From Arthrobacter sp. (lineage in GTDB: Bacteria; Actinomycetota; Actinomycetes; Actinomycetales; Micrococcaceae): a stretch of DNA of 22,684 nucleotides. The notes under the pieces were generated by a model. It had not been told where the DNA came from, ran no database searches, and was given only the letters and a program-made list of their open reading frames with translations. The position numbers and the translations under genes are program-made. Location: NCBI GenBank assembly GCA_018260285.1, contig JAGLBH010000008.1:1-22684 (forward strand). Reading direction: 5' to 3'. Positions 11,984 through 18,609 of the stretch are shown here, one piece after another. Each line of letters starts with the position of its first letter. Within the stretch, counting starts at the first letter, position 1.

Positions 11984-12812
11984 CCTCTGAGGGCTCGCCC
12001 TCGTCCAGATCAGCCGACACCGTCAGCTTCTTCAGGCTCAGGGAACCCCTGAGCGTGGAGAGGAAGGCGGTGTCTGCTGCATCTCGGCCCGTGGCGATCC
12101 GCAGCAGGGTGTCCGTGGGTGCCAGCCGCGTGGAGTCGAAGACGTTCCACCGGCCGTTGAAGTACCCTTCCGCCACCAGGTGGAAGTCCATGGGCACGAG
12201 GCCCGGCGCGTAGACGCTCGTCACGCGAGCGGGGATGCTCCGCGAGCGCAGGAACGCCACCGTGAGGTGAGCGAAGTCCCGGCAGACGCCGCGCCGGCCG
12301 AGGTAGGTGTCCCGCGCGTCGTCGGTGAAGCGCGAGCTTCCCCGAACGTAGGCCAGCTCAGAGTTGACCCACTCCTCGACGGCCTGGGCCAGTACGGCGG
12401 GGTCGTCTGCGGGGAAGTCAGCGAGGGGGAAATGCGCGTAGGCGCTGGGCAAAAGCACATCCGAGGGGATGTACCGGCTCTGGCGGGTGTAGCGAATCTG
12501 CTCCTCCCGCCCGGAGCCCTCGGACCCGGCGGCGAAGAGGAACCCGTGGTCTGCACGGGCTGCGTAGTCGATGACGAGCGATCCCCCCTGCTCCGTGGTG
12601 ATCTCGTGCAGCCGGGTGCCGTTCTCGGAGAGGATCTCCGTGGGCTGGATCGGCTCCCCGTCGAGCGTGATGTCAAGGCGCTCGTCGAGGATGCGGGCAT
12701 GTCCTTGAGCCAGGGCGAGGGAGGCGACCGTCGTCGTCGGCCCCTCGATGAGGCATTCAAGGCGGGCCGAGACGCGTGCGAGGCCCAGGGTTTCGGTGTT
12801 CTGATCGTTCAC
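11970..12812 (-). CDS. Transglutaminase-like cysteine protease-fold protein
   Basis: 280 aa, no signal peptide, so probably cytoplasmic. The N-terminal half is a beta-rich domain like that preceding bacterial transglutaminase cores. The core has a full Cys-His-Asp triad: Cys177 in LGRRGVCRDFAHL, His211 in PMDFHLVAEGYF and Asp226 in WNVFDSTR. The family includes amidases and peptidases; the substrate cannot be told. The GTG start overlaps the stop of the upstream Lrp/AsnC gene by 4 nt (GTGA), so the two are co-transcribed and translationally coupled. This places it beside a 2-oxoacid dehydrogenase regulator, with no obvious reason. Its 3' end overlaps convergent mqo by 14 nt. Confidence 0.9.
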   Translation of the reverse strand: MNDQNTETLGLARVSARLECLIEGPTTTVASLALAQGHARILDERLDITLDGEPIQPTEILSENGTRLHEITTEQGGSLVIDYAARADHGFLFAAGSEGSGREEQIRYTRQSRYIPSDVLLPSAYAHFPLADFPADDPAVLAQAVEEWVNSELAYVRGSSRFTDDARDTYLGRRGVCRDFAHLTVAFLRSRSIPARVTSVYAPGLVPMDFHLVAEGYFNGRWNVFDSTRLAPTDTLLRIATGRDAADTAFLSTLRGSLSLKKLTVSADLDEGEPSEVTPD

Positions 12813-13315
12813 GTCTCAACGTTCTCACGTTTGCCGCCAGGATGGGAGCCTGTCTTGGCGACGAGGTCCGCTGTGCGGTGGGTGAAGAGGCTCTCGAGGA
12901 CGATGACGCTCGAGGATCGCTGGACGTCCCCGCTCGCGCTCATCTCGTCGAGCACGCGCTGAAGGTCCTGGTTGCTCCGGGCGACGACGATGGCCACGAG
13001 ATCCGAATCACCCGAAACAGTGTGCAGCTCGAGGATCTCCGGGATGGCCCGCATCGCCTCGGCGAAGTCCCGGTGGCTGCGGCGCTGGTTGACGGTGAGG
13101 GAGACGATGGCCCGCACCCCGTACCCGAGGGCCTCCGGACTGATCTGCGGCCCCCACCCCGAGATGACTCCTTCGCGGGCCAGGCGCTCGAGGCGGGCCT
13201 GAACCGTGCCCCGGGCGACGCCCAGGATCCTGGACGCGTCGAGAATGCTGTGGCGGGGTGATGCGGTGAAGAGCTCGATGATGCGCACATCGAGGGAATC
13301 GATGGGAGGGTTCAT
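12809..13315 (-). CDS. Lrp/AsnC family transcriptional regulator, divergent from the E1 operon
   Basis: 168 aa. N-terminal helix-turn-helix (about residues 6-55: LDVRIIELFTASPRHSILDA, then RILGVARGTVQARLERLAREG) and C-terminal RAM/AsnC ligand-binding domain (about 65-145: VRAIVSLTVNQ, ILELHTVSGDSDLVAIVVARS). Members usually form octamers or dimers that sense amino acids. It is transcribed away from a branched-chain 2-oxoacid dehydrogenase operon, the same arrangement as BkdR of Pseudomonas, an Lrp homologue that activates bkd genes. Control of that operon by Leu, Val, Ile or their keto acids is therefore a reasonable inference. A CACAAT -10 box 6 nt before the ATG suggests a leaderless mRNA. 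It overlaps the downstream transglutaminase-like gene by 4 nt. Confidence 0.92.
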   Translation of the reverse strand: MNPPIDSLDVRIIELFTASPRHSILDASRILGVARGTVQARLERLAREGVISGWGPQISPEALGYGVRAIVSLTVNQRRSHRDFAEAMRAIPEILELHTVSGDSDLVAIVVARSNQDLQRVLDEMSASGDVQRSSSVIVLESLFTHRTADLVAKTGSHPGGKRENVET

Positions 13316-13447: not shown

Positions 13448-13453
13448 ATGGCC

Positions 13454-14470
13454 ATGACAGTTGTGACACCAGACACAGTCTCCCTGAGCGCGCAGGAGGC
13501 GGAGGAGGCCCTGGGCCTCATCCTCAAGGCGCGCGCCCTGGAGACCGGGGCCATCCGCTGGCAGCGCCAGGGCCTCATTCCCGGGTACGCCCCCGCGCTT
13601 GGCCAGGAGGCCGCCCAGGTGGGCATCGCCCTGGCCATGGGCCCTCATGACCGAGCCTTCCCCACGTACCGCGAGGCGGGGGTGGCACTGGCGCTGGGCG
13701 TGGACATGGCCGCCTACATGGCCACCCATCAGGGCATCTGGCACGGCGGTCTCTACAACCCGGCTCAGACCCGGCTGGCCCCGTTTCAGGCAGTCGTCGG
13801 CGGCTCGGTGCTCCACGCCGTCGGGTGGGCTCTGGGCCAGAGCATGTCTGGTGCGGACTCGGTCGCTGTGGCCTTCCTCGGCGACGGCGCCAGCAGCCAG
13901 GGCGACGTCCACGAGGCCATGAACTTCGCCGGCGTCATGAACGCCCCGGTGGTCTTCTACGTGCAGAACAACGGGTGGGCCATCTCCACCCCCACAGCCA
14001 AGCAGGTGGCCGGCGGCAGCGTCGCCGAGCGCGCCCAGGGCTACGGATTCTCCGCCTATCGGGCAGACGGCAACGACATCGAGGCCGTCCTCACCGCATC
14101 GCGCCTGGCCCTCGAGGAGGCTCGGGGCACGCGGCGCCCCGTCGTCGTCGAGGTGATGACGTACCGGCGCGGACCGCACTCCACCTCTGACGACCCCGGC
14201 CGCTACCGCAGCCTCCAGCAGGAGTACGAGCAGGGCGCGGTGGACCCGGTGGACGTCGCGACGGAGCGCGCGCGGGCCGCAGGCGTGAGCGCCGAACAGA
14301 TCGAGAAGCTCACGTCCGATGCGGAGGCCTGGATCGAGGACCTGCGCGTCCGGACGACGAGCGCGGGACACCGCCCCGGGGACGAGCTCTTCGACTTCGT
14401 CTTCCAGACCCCCACCGAATCCCTCAAGGCCCAGCAGGCCTCCTGGCGAGAAGAGACCGAGCGTGACTGA
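13454..14470 (+). CDS. bkdA: 2-oxoacid dehydrogenase E1 component, alpha subunit (branched-chain type)
   Basis: ThDP-dependent decarboxylase subunit; with the beta subunit it transfers the acyl group of a 2-oxoacid to a lipoyl domain. 338 aa. ThDP motif from GDGASSQGDVHEA (143-155) to QNNGWAIS (171-178). YAPALGQEAAQVG, FPTYREAGVAL and YRRGPHSTSDDPGRYR resemble branched-chain and Gram-positive PDH E1-alpha more than acetoin dehydrogenase. The neighbouring Lrp-type regulator favours branched-chain 2-oxoacids; PDH-like or acetoin activity cannot be excluded. The ATG at 13454 is chosen over 13448 because a -10 box lies 6 nt before it. The beta-subunit GTG overlaps its 3' end by 8 nt, indicating tight coupling and equal stoichiometry. 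Confidence 0.92.
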   Translation: MTVVTPDTVSLSAQEAEEALGLILKARALETGAIRWQRQGLIPGYAPALGQEAAQVGIALAMGPHDRAFPTYREAGVALALGVDMAAYMATHQGIWHGGLYNPAQTRLAPFQAVVGGSVLHAVGWALGQSMSGADSVAVAFLGDGASSQGDVHEAMNFAGVMNAPVVFYVQNNGWAISTPTAKQVAGGSVAERAQGYGFSAYRADGNDIEAVLTASRLALEEARGTRRPVVVEVMTYRRGPHSTSDDPGRYRSLQQEYEQGAVDPVDVATERARAAGVSAEQIEKLTSDAEAWIEDLRVRTTSAGHRPGDELFDFVFQTPTESLKAQQASWREETERD

Positions 14471-15473
14471 GACGACGACGGCAGGCACCCTCACCCTGTC
14501 CATGCAGCAGGCCATCAACCGGGCGCTCGGGGAGGCCCTGGGGTCCGATCCCCGCTCGCTCATCCTCGGCGAGGACGTGGGCACGCTCGGCGGGGTGTTC
14601 CGCGTGACTGACGGGCTGCAGCAGCGGTTCGGGGCAGAGCGCGTCCGGGACACCCCCCTCGCGGAGTCCGGCATCGTGGGCCTCTCCGTGGGACTGGCCA
14701 TGGCCGGGTGGCGCCCGATCCCGGAGATCCAGTTCGACGGCTTCAGCTACCCCGCCATGAACCAGATCATCACCCAGCTGGCCCGCATGAACTACCGCAG
14801 CCGGGGGGCCGTGCCCATGCCGGTGACGATCCGCATTCCGAGCTTCGGCGGCATCAACGCGCCCGAGATGCACTCCGAGTCCCTCGAGGCGATCTTCGCC
14901 CACACGCCGGGCCTCAAGGTCGTCTCCCCCTCCAGCCCGCACGAGGCCTACCACCTGCTGCGCTCCGTGACGGGAGAGAACAGCACGGACCCCGTGATCT
15001 TCATGGAGCCCAAGGCCCGCTACTGGAACAAGGGCGACGTGGACCTCGAGCACCCGGGGAGCCTCACCGGCGCGCGGATCGCCCGCCGCGGCAGGCACGT
15101 CACGCTCATCTCCTGGGGCGCTCAGGTCTCCACGTGCCTTCAGGTCGCAGAGCTCGCCGAGGAGGACGGCATCGAAGTCGAGGTGCTGGACCTGCGCTGG
15201 CTCAAGCCCGTCGACGCGGAGGCCATTGCAGAGTCGGTGGGCCGCACGGGCCGCGCCGTCGTCGTCCACGAGGCCCCGCTCACCGCGGGTCTCGGGGCGG
15301 AGGTGGCCGCCATCGCCTCGGCCCGCTGCTTCGGGAGCCTCAAGGCCCCCGTCGAGCGCGTCACGGGATTCGACGTGCCCTATCCCTCAGGTGACCTCGA
15401 AGAGGAGTACCTGCCGAACATTGACCGGATTTTCTTCGGAATCCAGAGAACATTGGAGTATCGCCGTGGCTGA
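14463..15473 (+). CDS. bkdB: 2-oxoacid dehydrogenase E1 component, beta subunit (branched-chain type)
   Basis: Second half of the E1 heterotetramer. 336 aa, standard length. The N-terminal pyrimidine-binding domain includes LILGEDVG (about 33-40) and Glu68 in RDTPLAESGIVGLSVGLAMAG, the expected ThDP-activating glutamate. EIQFDGFSYPAMNQI and GGINAPEMHSESLEAIFAH follow, the latter in the usual P-x-x-HSxxxEA position. The C-terminal transketolase-type domain holds LISWGAQVSTCLQVAELA and VEVLDLRWLKPVDAEAI. The start is a GTG inside the end of E1-alpha (8-nt overlap). Its own last 8 nt overlap the GTG of the lipoyl-domain gene, so alpha, beta and lipoyl carrier are made in one coupled series. Confidence 0.94.
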   Translation: MTETTTAGTLTLSMQQAINRALGEALGSDPRSLILGEDVGTLGGVFRVTDGLQQRFGAERVRDTPLAESGIVGLSVGLAMAGWRPIPEIQFDGFSYPAMNQIITQLARMNYRSRGAVPMPVTIRIPSFGGINAPEMHSESLEAIFAHTPGLKVVSPSSPHEAYHLLRSVTGENSTDPVIFMEPKARYWNKGDVDLEHPGSLTGARIARRGRHVTLISWGAQVSTCLQVAELAEEDGIEVEVLDLRWLKPVDAEAIAESVGRTGRAVVVHEAPLTAGLGAEVAAIASARCFGSLKAPVERVTGFDVPYPSGDLEEEYLPNIDRIFFGIQRTLEYRRG

Positions 15474-15792
15474 ACTGTCCTTTCCCCTGCCGGATCTCGG
15501 TGAAGGCCTCATTGAGGCGACCGTCCTCGAGTGGCTCGTCGCCGTGGGCGACCACGTGGAGCGCAACCAGCCGATCGTCGAGGTCGAGACGACCAAGTCG
15601 GCGCTCGAGCTGCCCTCCCCTCAGACCGGTGTGGTCCTCCGGCTCGGCGCGGACGAGGGCGCGGTCGTGAACGTCGGCGAGGAGCTCATCGCCTTCGCCG
15701 TGCCGGACGAGCAGGCCGGGATCATCGGCGTCGTGCCGGAGGAGAAGAAGGCCAAGCGCCGCGTTCGCCTCTCCGCCCCCGTGGAGGACTGA
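15466..15792 (+). CDS. Stand-alone lipoyl domain, minimal E2-like protein (108 aa)
   Basis: Starts at GTG 15466 with TTGGAGT upstream. Residues 1-79 are a typical E2 lipoyl domain: SFPLPDLGEGLIEATVLEWL, then VETTKSALELPSP with lipoyl-acceptor Lys44. The remaining 29 residues are a charged tail (VPEEKKAKRRVRLSAPVED), then a clean stop. A normal E2 of about 400-500 aa would continue with an E3-binding domain and an acyltransferase core carrying HxxxDG; neither is found in any frame downstream. The next gene starts 2 nt later and is an alpha/beta hydrolase. It may swing acyl groups for the E1 encoded just upstream, using a core from another E2. Either an ancient truncation or a distinct minimal carrier. 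Confidence 0.88.
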   Translation: MAELSFPLPDLGEGLIEATVLEWLVAVGDHVERNQPIVEVETTKSALELPSPQTGVVLRLGADEGAVVNVGEELIAFAVPDEQAGIIGVVPEEKKAKRRVRLSAPVED

Positions 15793-15794
15793 CC

Positions 15795-16511
15795 GTGGCG
15801 GAGCAGATCACCGCAGCTGCCCGTCTCGTGGCCGGCGGCCCCTCCGCCGTCCGGGACGTCTGGCTCTTCCACGGGCTCGGATCCTCCGGGCAGGGCACGT
15901 TCGAGGGGACGGGCTGGCTTCGCGCCCTTCAGCCTCTGGCAGACGACGCCGACCGGCCCGCCCGCCTCTGGCTGCTTGAGCTGCCGGGTCACCGGGATCA
16001 CGCGGAGGCCCTGGCGGACCCTGCGTCCGTCACCGCCTCCGCTCCCTGGCTGGGCGACGCCGTGCGCCAGCTCATCGCAGAGCACTCTGCCCCGCTGGCC
16101 GCTGCGGACGAGCCGTGGACTCGCGCTGCCATCGGGTACTCCTTCGGCGGCCGCCTGGTCTGGGAGGCCGCAGACCTGCTCAACCGGGTGGTCATCGGCG
16201 GCCTTCCCCGCACGGAGCCGGACGCCGAGACCCGCTCGGCCGTTCTCGCCGCGGCGGGCCAGGACCCTGCAGACAGCCCCGCCCTGGAGCAGTTCCTCCA
16301 GTCGGTGACAGATCACCCCTTCAGCGGGGACGTCCCGCCGAGCGCTCCCTGTCTCATGGCCTACGGGGAGAAGGACGAGATCGCCGCAGACGCCCCCGAG
16401 CTCGCTGCGAGCGTGCCCGGGGCGCAGGTTCTCACACTCCCGGGCCGCACTCACATGAACGCCGTCTCGGCACGGGCCTTCAAAGAGGCCGCCCTCGCCC
16501 TGCTGGCCTAG
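15795..16511 (+). CDS. Alpha/beta hydrolase next to the lipoyl-domain gene
   Basis: 238 aa from GTG 15795, only 2 nt after the lipoyl-domain gene, so part of the same operon. Alpha/beta hydrolase fold: oxyanion HGLGSSG, ELPGH after strand 4, nucleophile elbow GYSFGG with Ser116, Asp194 in GEKDE and His220 in PGRTHMNA. The triad is complete, so it should be an active hydrolase, perhaps a thioesterase or an acyl-handling enzyme. From memory, some acetoin dehydrogenase E2 proteins (AcoC type) are one chain of lipoyl domain plus alpha/beta hydrolase domain; the two genes here look like that protein split in two. It is paralogous to the gene at 17893 (same length, shared TGWLR and GYS-G motifs). 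Substrate unknown. Confidence 0.88.
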   Translation: MAEQITAAARLVAGGPSAVRDVWLFHGLGSSGQGTFEGTGWLRALQPLADDADRPARLWLLELPGHRDHAEALADPASVTASAPWLGDAVRQLIAEHSAPLAAADEPWTRAAIGYSFGGRLVWEAADLLNRVVIGGLPRTEPDAETRSAVLAAAGQDPADSPALEQFLQSVTDHPFSGDVPPSAPCLMAYGEKDEIAADAPELAASVPGAQVLTLPGRTHMNAVSARAFKEAALALLA

Positions 16512-16533: not shown

Positions 16534-17727
16534 TCAGGCCTTCGTGTAGGTGCCCTCCACGGCGTCGACGGAGAGGTCTCGACCCCGCGTCTCGCCGGCC
16601 CAGAGGGTTGCGAGCGCCGAGATCACGCAGAGCGCGATGATGTAGACGCCGATGAGCGCCGAGCTGCGGGTCGCCACGAAGATCCACTCGGCGATCATGG
16701 CCGCGAACGCGCCGCCCAGGATGGCTCCGATGGCATAGCCGATCGAGATGCCGGAATACCGGATGTGCGCGGGGAACATCTCCGCGTACATCGCCGACTG
16801 CGGCCCGTAGGAGAGGCCGAGGCCTGCGCAGAGCACCGCGAGGGCCAGGAAGTACAGGCCCAGGCTCTTCGTCTCCACGAGCATGAAGCACGGAATGACC
16901 CAGAGGGCGATCAGGGCGTAGCCGATGAGGAAGGTGTTGCGGCGCCCGAGGCGGTCGGAGATCGCCCCGCCCACGAGGGTGAAGACCAGCCACGAGATGG
17001 AGGCCAGGGCGGTCATGCCGATGACCGGAACCGCGTCCATTCTGAGGTACTTCGTGGCGTATCCGATGAAGTAGGCGATGACGAGGTATCCCGCGGCGTT
17101 GTTGCCCACGAAAATGAGGGCCGACTGGATGACGGGGCGTGAGTGGTCCAAGTAAAGCTCGCTGAGCGGCGCCCGAGAGCGGGCCTTCCGCTCGCTCAGC
17201 TCGAGGAAGACCGGGGAGTCCTCCACGGTCTTGCGGATGACGTATCCCACGATGATGAGCACGATCGAGAGCAGGAACGGCACCCGCCACCCCCACGCCA
17301 TGAAGTCCGCAGGACTCATCGCCGTCCGGAGGACGTACAGGAGGCTCGTGGCGAGGATCATGCCCAGAGGCACCCCGATCTGGGGGAAGGCGCCGAAGAG
17401 GCCGCGCTTGCCGAGCGGGGCGTGCTCCACCGCCATGAGTGCTGCGCCGCCCCACTCGCCGCCGGCGGAGAAGCCCTGCAGCACGCGGAGGAGGCTGATG
17501 CCGAGGGTGGCGAAGGCGACGACGCCCGCCATCGCCGGGTTGGCCTTCTGGGCGTCCGCCAGGAAGAGGGGCGTCAGCAGGGTTGCCGAGAGCTGGGCGT
17601 AGATGAAGAAGTCATACCACTCGATGGTGGTTCCCACGAGGGTTCCGGCGAGGACCTTCTTCTCCTCGGACCCGACGGACGGTGAGGCGGAGGCGGCCGA
17701 CGGGCCGGCCTGGAATGAATGGGCCAT
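16534..17727 (-). CDS. MFS transporter, metabolite:H+ symporter (MHS) family, apparently lacking TM2-TM3
   Basis: 397 aa, short for a family of about 430-460. It begins in MHS style (LAGTLVGTTIEWYDFFIYAQ). The later part is also typical: LQGFSAGGEWGGAALMAVEHAP, WGWRVPFLLSI, ISDRLGRRNTF and YAEMFPAHIRYSGIS. However AFATLG (71-76) passes straight into ISLLRVLQGF (77-86). Normally about 50 residues with two membrane helices and loop motif GxxxDRxGRK lie between; the loss is in frame. Ten rather than twelve helices would remain. AGGAGA precedes the ATG at 17727. Substrates of the family are organic acids, osmolytes or shikimate; its position beside a 2-oxoacid dehydrogenase suggests an organic acid. 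It may be non-functional. Confidence 0.9.
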   Translation of the reverse strand: MAHSFQAGPSAASASPSVGSEEKKVLAGTLVGTTIEWYDFFIYAQLSATLLTPLFLADAQKANPAMAGVVAFATLGISLLRVLQGFSAGGEWGGAALMAVEHAPLGKRGLFGAFPQIGVPLGMILATSLLYVLRTAMSPADFMAWGWRVPFLLSIVLIIVGYVIRKTVEDSPVFLELSERKARSRAPLSELYLDHSRPVIQSALIFVGNNAAGYLVIAYFIGYATKYLRMDAVPVIGMTALASISWLVFTLVGGAISDRLGRRNTFLIGYALIALWVIPCFMLVETKSLGLYFLALAVLCAGLGLSYGPQSAMYAEMFPAHIRYSGISIGYAIGAILGGAFAAMIAEWIFVATRSSALIGVYIIALCVISALATLWAGETRGRDLSVDAVEGTYTKA

Positions 17728-17892: not shown

Positions 17893-18609
17893 ATGAACGC
17901 CGACTCCCCCCAGCCCGTCCTCCTCCTCCACGGCTTCGCCTCCACCGCCGAAGAGACATTCGGCCGGACCGGCTGGCTCAGGGTCCTCGCGCGCGCCGGA
18001 ATGGAGCCGATCGCCCCGGACCTGCCCGGCCATGGGAGCAGCAGCCTCCCTGCCCCCTCCTCCCGGGAGGAGCTCGAGGCGTGGGCAGTTCAGGAGCTGG
18101 AGAAGGCGGCCTCGCGCTACGGAAGTCCTGTCCGCTGCATCGGCTATTCTCTGGGCTCCGCCCTTGTCTGGACTGCGGCGCTGAAGCGCCCCGAGCTCAC
18201 AGGCGGCCTCGCCCTGGCGGGGGTTCCGGAGCACGACCACCTCGCGGATCTGGGCCGCGGCGTCGTCTCCCCCTCGACGGAGTTCCTCACGGGTCTCATC
18301 GCCCAGTCCGGGTCAGCCGAGCGCCTCGCTCCCCTCATCGCCGCGAGCGCCCGGGATCCGTTCTCAGCCCACCAGCTCATGGCGTCCGGGCAGATCCCGG
18401 CGGGGCTGGCGCTCGTCGCGGCGGGCAGCGAGGACGGACTCGCCCTGGCTCCGCAGGCGCTCGCGGACGCCGCCGAGGAGGCAGGCCGAAGCAGGCCCCG
18501 CGAGCTGGTCATCGAGGGGCGGGATCACATCACTGCTCTGACGAGCGGCCTTCTGCGGTCGGCAGCTGCAGCCGCCCTCGGCTCAGAAGGGCCTGAATCA
18601 GCCCGGTGA
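17893..18609 (+). CDS. Alpha/beta hydrolase, paralogue of the one at 15795
   Basis: 238 aa, starting MNADSPQPVLLLHGFASTAE with AGAGAG upstream. Oxyanion HGFAS, DLPGHGSS, nucleophile elbow GYSLGS with Ser86, Asp181 in GSEDG and His212 in EGRDHI form a full triad. It shares with the hydrolase at 15795 the same length, ETFxxTGWLR(V/A)L after the oxyanion loop, IGYS(L/F)G, and DPFS/DHPFS before the Asp strand; these mark a duplication. It is divergent from the MHS transporter and may share the operator between them. Function could be esterase, lactonase or thioesterase; sequence does not decide. Its last 80 nt overlap the convergent MFS gene, and its C-terminal tail (GSEGPESAR) is probably variable. 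Confidence 0.85.
   Translation: MNADSPQPVLLLHGFASTAEETFGRTGWLRVLARAGMEPIAPDLPGHGSSSLPAPSSREELEAWAVQELEKAASRYGSPVRCIGYSLGSALVWTAALKRPELTGGLALAGVPEHDHLADLGRGVVSPSTEFLTGLIAQSGSAERLAPLIAASARDPFSAHQLMASGQIPAGLALVAAGSEDGLALAPQALADAAEEAGRSRPRELVIEGRDHITALTSGLLRSAAAAALGSEGPESAR

Follow-up and report, generated by a model that had tools for sequence, protein, structure and literature searches.

How does the acyl group leave a 2-oxoacid dehydrogenase that has no acyltransferase core to accept it? These enzymes are textbook machines assembled around the core of their acyltransferase (E2), and a stable version made of the decarboxylase (E1) and a free lipoyl carrier makes the exit of the acyl group a question in its own right. 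The question is raised by an operon in a 22,684-nucleotide stretch of DNA from Arthrobacter sp. (assembly GCA_018260285.1, contig JAGLBH010000008.1, positions 1 to 22,684), which in its full length is called the window here. The operon is a conserved core-less variant of a 2-oxoacid dehydrogenase: it resembles a pyruvate dehydrogenase (PDH)-type machine minus the central acyltransferase core, with a hydrolase gene in the core's place. It consists of the following genes:

13448..14470, forward strand: E1-alpha, the alpha subunit of a thiamine diphosphate-dependent 2-oxoacid decarboxylase (Pfam E1_dh, E = 2e-66)
14463..15473, forward strand: E1-beta (Pfam Transket_pyr and Transketolase_C), overlapping E1-alpha by 8 nt
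15466..15792, forward strand: lone lipoyl protein of 108 amino acids (Pfam Biotin_lipoyl, E = 9e-19), overlapping E1-beta by 8 nt
15795..16511, forward strand: alpha/beta hydrolase of 238 amino acids with Ser116, Asp194 and His220, a putative thioesterase (invariant triad and structure model), starting 2 nt after the lipoyl gene

The overlaps, the 2-nt gap and the Ser-Asp-His triad are exact to the base as given in the original prediction, and its statement that the domain binding the dihydrolipoyl-reoxidizing component (E3) and the acyltransferase core are both absent stands, since Pfam finds neither in the 108-residue protein. The usual gene order of branched-chain 2-oxoacid dehydrogenase- and PDH-type complexes (E1-alpha/beta, E2, E3) is E1-alpha, E1-beta, E2; their E1-alpha, E1-beta and lipoyl domain are homologous to those of the operon, whereas here the E2 consists of the lipoyl domain with a short basic extension and has neither subunit-binding domain nor acyltransferase core. 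The lipoyl domain reaches to about residue 80 and contains the lipoyl lysine Lys44; residues 84–108 are disordered in the structure model (mean predicted local distance difference test score, pLDDT, 73.8; under 50 across these residues). The sequence is of the E2 lipoyl type (67.5 bits with Biotin_lipoyl; 15 bits, below cut-off, with GCV_H). A biotin carrier in place of a lipoyl carrier is less likely, the best NCBIfam models of the protein being E2s. Some of the 120 records listed out of 679 matches name the lone protein (109 amino acids) "biotin attachment protein" or "biotin/lipoyl-containing". GcvH and LbpA are likewise small single-domain lipoyl carriers (for LbpA: PMC6067878), but the present protein has an E2-type lipoyl sequence and E1-alpha/beta as its partner.

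The type of E1 is less clear. The original prediction had called it branched-chain-type, which is not settled: the best NCBIfam model of E1-alpha is TIGR03181 (PDH E1-alpha), reached with 328 of 411 bits and thus below the cut-off, and among solved structures the nearest carry the name PDH E1. E1-beta proteins from 17 core-less and 22 E2-linked loci show many fixed differences, which yielded no reading of E2 docking; the Arg-Gly conserved at the end of E1-beta is due to the start of the lipoyl gene, which overlaps there.

Is the lone lipoyl gene a real gene? The comparisons covered samples of 149 genomes of the family (Micrococcaceae), 297 of the order and 246 of the class. In the family the lone lipoyl protein (calls at E = 1e-56 or better) is found in 50 of the 149 genomes and in 14 of 32 genera, and in all 50 the hydrolase gene lies within 1.5 kb of it. 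The best 80 of 273 loci, on which the counts of named loci given here and below rest, all have the order E1-alpha, E1-beta, lipoyl protein, hydrolase, all have the 8-nt overlap of the E1-beta and lipoyl genes, and all encode a lipoyl protein of 108–110 amino acids. Aligned lipoyl proteins have a mean column identity of 85% with Lys44 invariant in 14 of 14, and two pairs of lipoyl genes gave ratios of nonsynonymous to synonymous differences (pN/pS) of 0.29 and 0.09, indicating purifying selection. A decayed stump of a full E2, or a sequencing error, had been foreseen in the original prediction as what might lie behind the short gene, and the lone protein does resemble the first part of a full E2. 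Because its length is constant and its sequence conserved, with the same gene order in 80 of 80 loci, this explanation has to be rejected and is in effect refuted.

The order sample contained 31 lipoyl matches at E = 1e-25 or better, 13 of them to the lone form (12 within the family, one outside); the others are domains inside open frames of about 460 codons or more. The one genome outside is probably a Cryobacterium, in which the genes for an Lrp-type regulator, E1-alpha, E1-beta, the lipoyl protein and the hydrolase stand together in otherwise different surroundings. The hydrolase therefore seems to have travelled with the module, which speaks for a joint function of its genes. Lone relatives of the lipoyl protein also occur in records named Intrasporangium sp. 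(P0191) and "Acidobacteria bacterium" (L207, a metagenome bin), so the lone form may extend past the family by transfer, or these records may be misnamed. A search of plasmids with the lipoyl protein gave no match at E = 1e-20. Within the genus of the window, one genome (G013) has E1-alpha 79% and E1-beta 84% identical to those of the window (63–77% for E1-beta in the other operon loci compared, some of them partial), and another (G043) lacks the operon and has two E1-alpha/E1-beta/lipoyl loci with long E2 frames. No description of a core-less E1-lipoyl-hydrolase operon was found in the open-licence literature as judged by titles and the openings of abstracts.

If the core is not in the lipoyl gene, it could be elsewhere. 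In the 80 loci fetched (up to 6 kb on each side, 70 of them at full length) no linked E2 core was found, while the same queries were positive in 17 of 17 controls. In the genome as a whole, where the original prediction had proposed to look for E2 and E3, there are four E2-core matches and an E3 over the TIGR01350 cut-off (G000:C355), in an assembly that is 82% complete and in 395 contigs. All 149 family genomes have E2-core matches, and in each of the eight genomes tested there is an E3 that passes the cut-off. The main rival explanation is that the lone lipoyl protein works in trans for an E2 core that belongs to another complex, with acyl-CoA (coenzyme A) as product and the hydrolase as an accessory or as an enzyme for later cleavage of the CoA thioester. 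That actinobacterial OdhA depends on the lipoyl groups of AceF in trans (PMC10415282) argues for it, and docking on another E2 core, as the original prediction had also considered, is possible by this analogy. The tail of the lone protein fits as well. In the full E2s of the order (14 inspected by eye) a linker joins the lipoyl domain to the subunit-binding domain, and in many of them this linker includes a VGYG...RRRR-like stretch; the lone protein stops shortly after a similar short basic stretch (again by eye). However, no docking site is evident on the lipoyl protein because it has no subunit-binding domain and its tail is predicted to be disordered, and no core is linked to the operon. 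The mixed OdhA/AceF complex, in which lipoyl groups and acyltransferase core are likewise on different polypeptides, is built the other way round: the OdhA E1 carries the core and borrows the lipoyl domain, whereas here E1 has a lipoyl protein of its own and no linked core. We take service in trans seriously but consider it rather doubtful.

The alternative is that the hydrolase itself ends the reaction. None of the 18 aligned hydrolases deviates at Ser116, Asp194 or His220. The Pfam match of the protein is weak (E = 0.09) and no NCBIfam model matches at E = 0.1; the assignment to the alpha/beta hydrolases rests on a confident structure model and on fold matches. These are with the alpha/beta-hydrolase family in general, among them the thioesterases RifR, RedJ, YbtT and DcsB, feruloyl esterases and C-C hydrolases. 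The matches are unspecific and do not name a substrate of the hydrolase.

A lipoyl domain next to an alpha/beta hydrolase recalls acetoin dehydrogenase, whose AcoC-type E2s join the two domains in one polypeptide (model NF011457). AcoABC and the present operon each combine an E1 pair with a lipoyl domain and an alpha/beta hydrolase, and the lipoyl protein matches the NCBIfam AcoC model through the lipoyl part, with 50 of 307 bits and thus below the cut-off. The hydrolase with its intact triad could carry out the E2 step as in AcoC, with its serine taking the acyl group off the lipoyl arm and handing it to CoA. Against this, lipoyl domain and hydrolase are separate proteins here and the operon hydrolase does not match the AcoC model; it is also found without E1 and lipoyl genes. 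No protein scored over the AcoC cut-off in the 246 class genomes (about seven candidates were scored in each genome, the best reaching 170 of 307 bits), and no lipoyl Pfam domain was found among the 120 listed of 148 relatives of the hydrolase. The view of the operon as a split AcoC with fused forms in relatives thus finds no support, and we regard an AcoC-like transfer to CoA as improbable. The window contains a second alpha/beta hydrolase (17893–18609, forward strand), which is 27% identical to the operon hydrolase. It weakly matches the hydrolase part of the AcoC model (E = 3e-11; 43 of 307 bits) and is kept in both G013 and G043, of which the latter is without the operon.

What the hydrolase could be good for is suggested by the neighbouring genes. 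In the window the operon is flanked by the following:

12809..13315, reverse strand: divergent Lrp/AsnC-family regulator (best NCBIfam Lrp/AsnC match E = 8e-19, all below cut-offs), upstream of the operon
16534..17727, reverse strand: transporter of the MHS (metabolite:H+ symporter) family (TIGR00883, E = 4e-79, below cut-off; probable start), downstream of the operon

Of the 80 named loci, 78 contain a match to Lrp and 56 one to an amino-acid permease. Genes of the 4-hydroxyphenylacetate (homoprotocatechuate) pathway are also close: at a distance of up to 6 kb, 17 loci have HpaG-type, GntR, HpaE and HpaD genes (17, 17, 14 and 12 loci, respectively) and 30 have an HpaB match, some of these matches being partial and one only 53 amino acids long. 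No locus has both sets within this distance, so that 47 of the 80 have some of these genes; in one locus (L251) the HpaB part and the HpaG-type/HpaD part both follow the operon within about 20 kb. Among the loci compared for orientation, the hydrolase and Hpa genes point in the same direction in all 12 that show both. HpaD, HpaE and HpaH pass their cut-offs; the HpaG-type protein passes that of the fumarylacetoacetate hydrolase family and is below the HpaG models. The HpaB-1 cut-off (480 bits) is passed by three of four HpaB proteins tested (551–583 bits), the fourth being HpaB-2-like and below it. Two genes adjoin one tested HpaB, for a flavin reductase and for a regulator of the PcaR/PobR type, neither reaching its model cut-off. 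HpaH (in one locus) and an amine oxidase (in another) are found farther along from the operon. Relatives of the MHS transporter of the window adjoin HpaB in other Micrococcaceae (loci L200, L244, L245, L247, L249 and L252). In the window copy an internal stretch of 56 amino acids, present in two relatives, is missing, which may be due to a genuine deletion or to faulty assembly. The amine oxidase, a primary-amine oxidase (L223, 16630–18540, reverse strand; over the NF008559 cut-off), has counterparts, similar by clustering, in L224, L230 and L231; its position near Hpa genes suggests use of tyramine or phenethylamine at the same locus.

The association is also seen genome-wide. Of the 50 lipoyl-positive genomes, 25 (eight genera) have HpaD no more than 20 kb from the lipoyl gene; 22 of the 50 have HpaB, which in 10 of them (seven genera) is no more than 25 kb away. 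Either gene is near by these distances in 30 of 50 lipoyl-positive genomes versus 14 of 50 with only the hydrolase (Fisher p = 0.002), or versus 7 of 25 when only the stronger hydrolase-only genomes (E = 1e-9 or better) are counted (p = 0.014); HpaB as such is present in 22 of 50 lipoyl-positive genomes versus 18 of 99 others (p = 0.0015), these p values all being uncorrected for kinship. For the proximity comparisons 100 of the 107 hydrolase-positive genomes were used, some by weak matches that may be to other hydrolases. The genome of the window itself has a homoprotocatechuate cluster (G000:C243, locus L233, 1698–8310) with HpaG-type, GntR, HpaE, HpaD, HpaH-like and HpaI-like genes, of which HpaD passes the cut-off, GntR, HpaE and HpaH are assigned by resemblance, and the HpaI-like gene is below the cut-off.

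An arylacetate pathway, an amino-acid permease and an Lrp-type regulator beside genes for E1, lipoyl protein and hydrolase fit a route from tyrosine (or phenylalanine) via the 2-oxoacid to the free arylacetate. Indeed, the neighbours suggest that in many Arthrobacter-related soil bacteria the operon helps to make free arylacetic acids from tyrosine and other aromatic amino acids. We propose, with a probability of roughly 0.4, that E1 decarboxylates an aromatic 2-oxoacid, that the arylacetyl group is held by the lone lipoyl protein and that the hydrolase frees the arylacetate; which substrate is used, that the lipoyl protein is lipoylated, that the hydrolase acts as a thioesterase and that CoA takes no part we infer from genes and their neighbourhood. 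In this scheme E1-alpha/beta would decarboxylate a 2-oxoacid formed by transamination, most likely an aromatic one, the first candidate being 4-hydroxyphenylpyruvate from tyrosine. The free-standing lipoyl protein would receive the acyl group on its lipoyl arm and act as a mobile carrier, much like GcvH. The hydrolase would cleave the arylacetyl thioester to the free acid (4-hydroxyphenylacetate), which would enter the homoprotocatechuate pathway, and the housekeeping E3 would reoxidize the dihydrolipoyl arm. The net reaction, without CoA, would be:

2-oxoacid + NAD+ + H2O -> acid + CO2 + NADH

The Hpa neighbours support the formation of a free acid because the enzymes of the pathway need free arylacetate. 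The original prediction had likewise suggested a free acid instead of acyl-CoA. This proposal gains from the 4-hydroxyphenylacetate genes next door and loses somewhat from the presence of the hydrolase at the locus also where E1 and lipoyl genes are missing.

The latter leads to the observations that weigh against the proposed release of arylacetate from the lipoyl protein. A hydrolase match is found in 107 of the 149 family genomes versus 50 with the lipoyl gene, which leaves up to 57 genomes with the hydrolase and without the lipoyl gene, some of them by weak matches, and the structural matches of the hydrolase do not speak for a particular substrate. In 10 of 11 loci read without E1 and lipoyl genes, the hydrolase stands beside NrtR, as at the operon loci. 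A tree of 37 hydrolases needs eight changes between operon and orphan copies (7–9 in bootstraps); its well-supported branches force only two, and the 14 orphans include three copies of the second hydrolase found in the window's genus. A pN/pS of 0.15–0.17 between operon and orphan copies within one genus indicates that the orphan hydrolase is under selection, too. From their distribution and the tree, the E1-alpha/E1-beta/lipoyl block has probably been lost or gained repeatedly beside a retained hydrolase, the tree being silent on loss versus gain. Hence the hydrolase must have a use outside the complex, or its substrate must also be produced by other enzymes.

These data also suit another explanation, in which the hydrolase is a separate gene of the 4-hydroxyphenylacetate or aromatic locus (an esterase, a lactonase or an arylacetyl-CoA thioesterase) and is co-transcribed by chance with an E1-lipoyl unit for branched-chain or other 2-oxoacids: the NrtR-flanked orphan loci and the eight label changes on the tree agree with it, as does HpaD within 20 kb of the hydrolase in 14 of 50 hydrolase-only genomes. 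However, the hydrolase accompanies the lipoyl gene everywhere the latter was found (50 of 50 genomes, 80 of 80 loci), and the two are together also in Cryobacterium. A chance association is therefore unlikely in our view.

The link to aromatic substrates has weak points of its own, which also count against the release of arylacetate. HpaD is present in 135 of 149 family genomes, in 48 of 50 lipoyl-positive ones versus 87 of 99 others (p = 0.14); because it is nearly universal in the family, its co-occurrence is uninformative. No HpaB-family match was found in the three genomes of the window's genus, and this genus has its Hpa genes on another contig than the operon. The best model of the permease is a GABA (4-aminobutyrate) permease, below the cut-off. 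An NrtR match is present in 66 of the 80 loci, with nad genes (names by eye) in the regions read; as these also stay at the locus, the conserved adjacency may be inherited and is no proof of a shared function. The HpaB family is found in only 40 of the 149 family genomes, as compared with HpaD in 135, so that in most Micrococcaceae 4-hydroxyphenylacetate may be hydroxylated by another enzyme or the pathway may be fed in another way.

Is there an enzyme in these bacteria that the operon could encode? The activity of 4-hydroxyphenylpyruvate oxidase (EC 1.2.3.13) was reportedly described in Arthrobacter by Blakley in 1977. Both PMC2991359 and PMC9338888 trace the activity to this work, and according to the former Arthrobacter (Glutamicibacter) arilaitensis uses tyrosine and has the homoprotocatechuate genes, the gene for the oxidase being "not located". 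The oxidase would catalyze the same net step as proposed for the operon, in the same bacterial group with homoprotocatechuate genes, but there O2 is the acceptor, whereas NAD+ is proposed here. As a hypothesis we put forward that the operon and the oxidase are identical, i.e., that a CoA-independent oxidative 2-oxoacid decarboxylase, in which a thioesterase replaces the E2 core, is the Arthrobacter enzyme that forms 4-hydroxyphenylacetate from 4-hydroxyphenylpyruvate. The proposal is tentative, as the name "oxidase" implies O2 rather than NAD+.

If the assignment to aromatic substrates is true, the operon would provide the genes for the activity reported in 1977, for which a later genome study had "not located" a gene (PMC2991359). 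For a large group of soil and cheese bacteria it would fill in a step of tyrosine breakdown, and it would represent a CoA-free route from 2-oxoacids to carboxylic acids.

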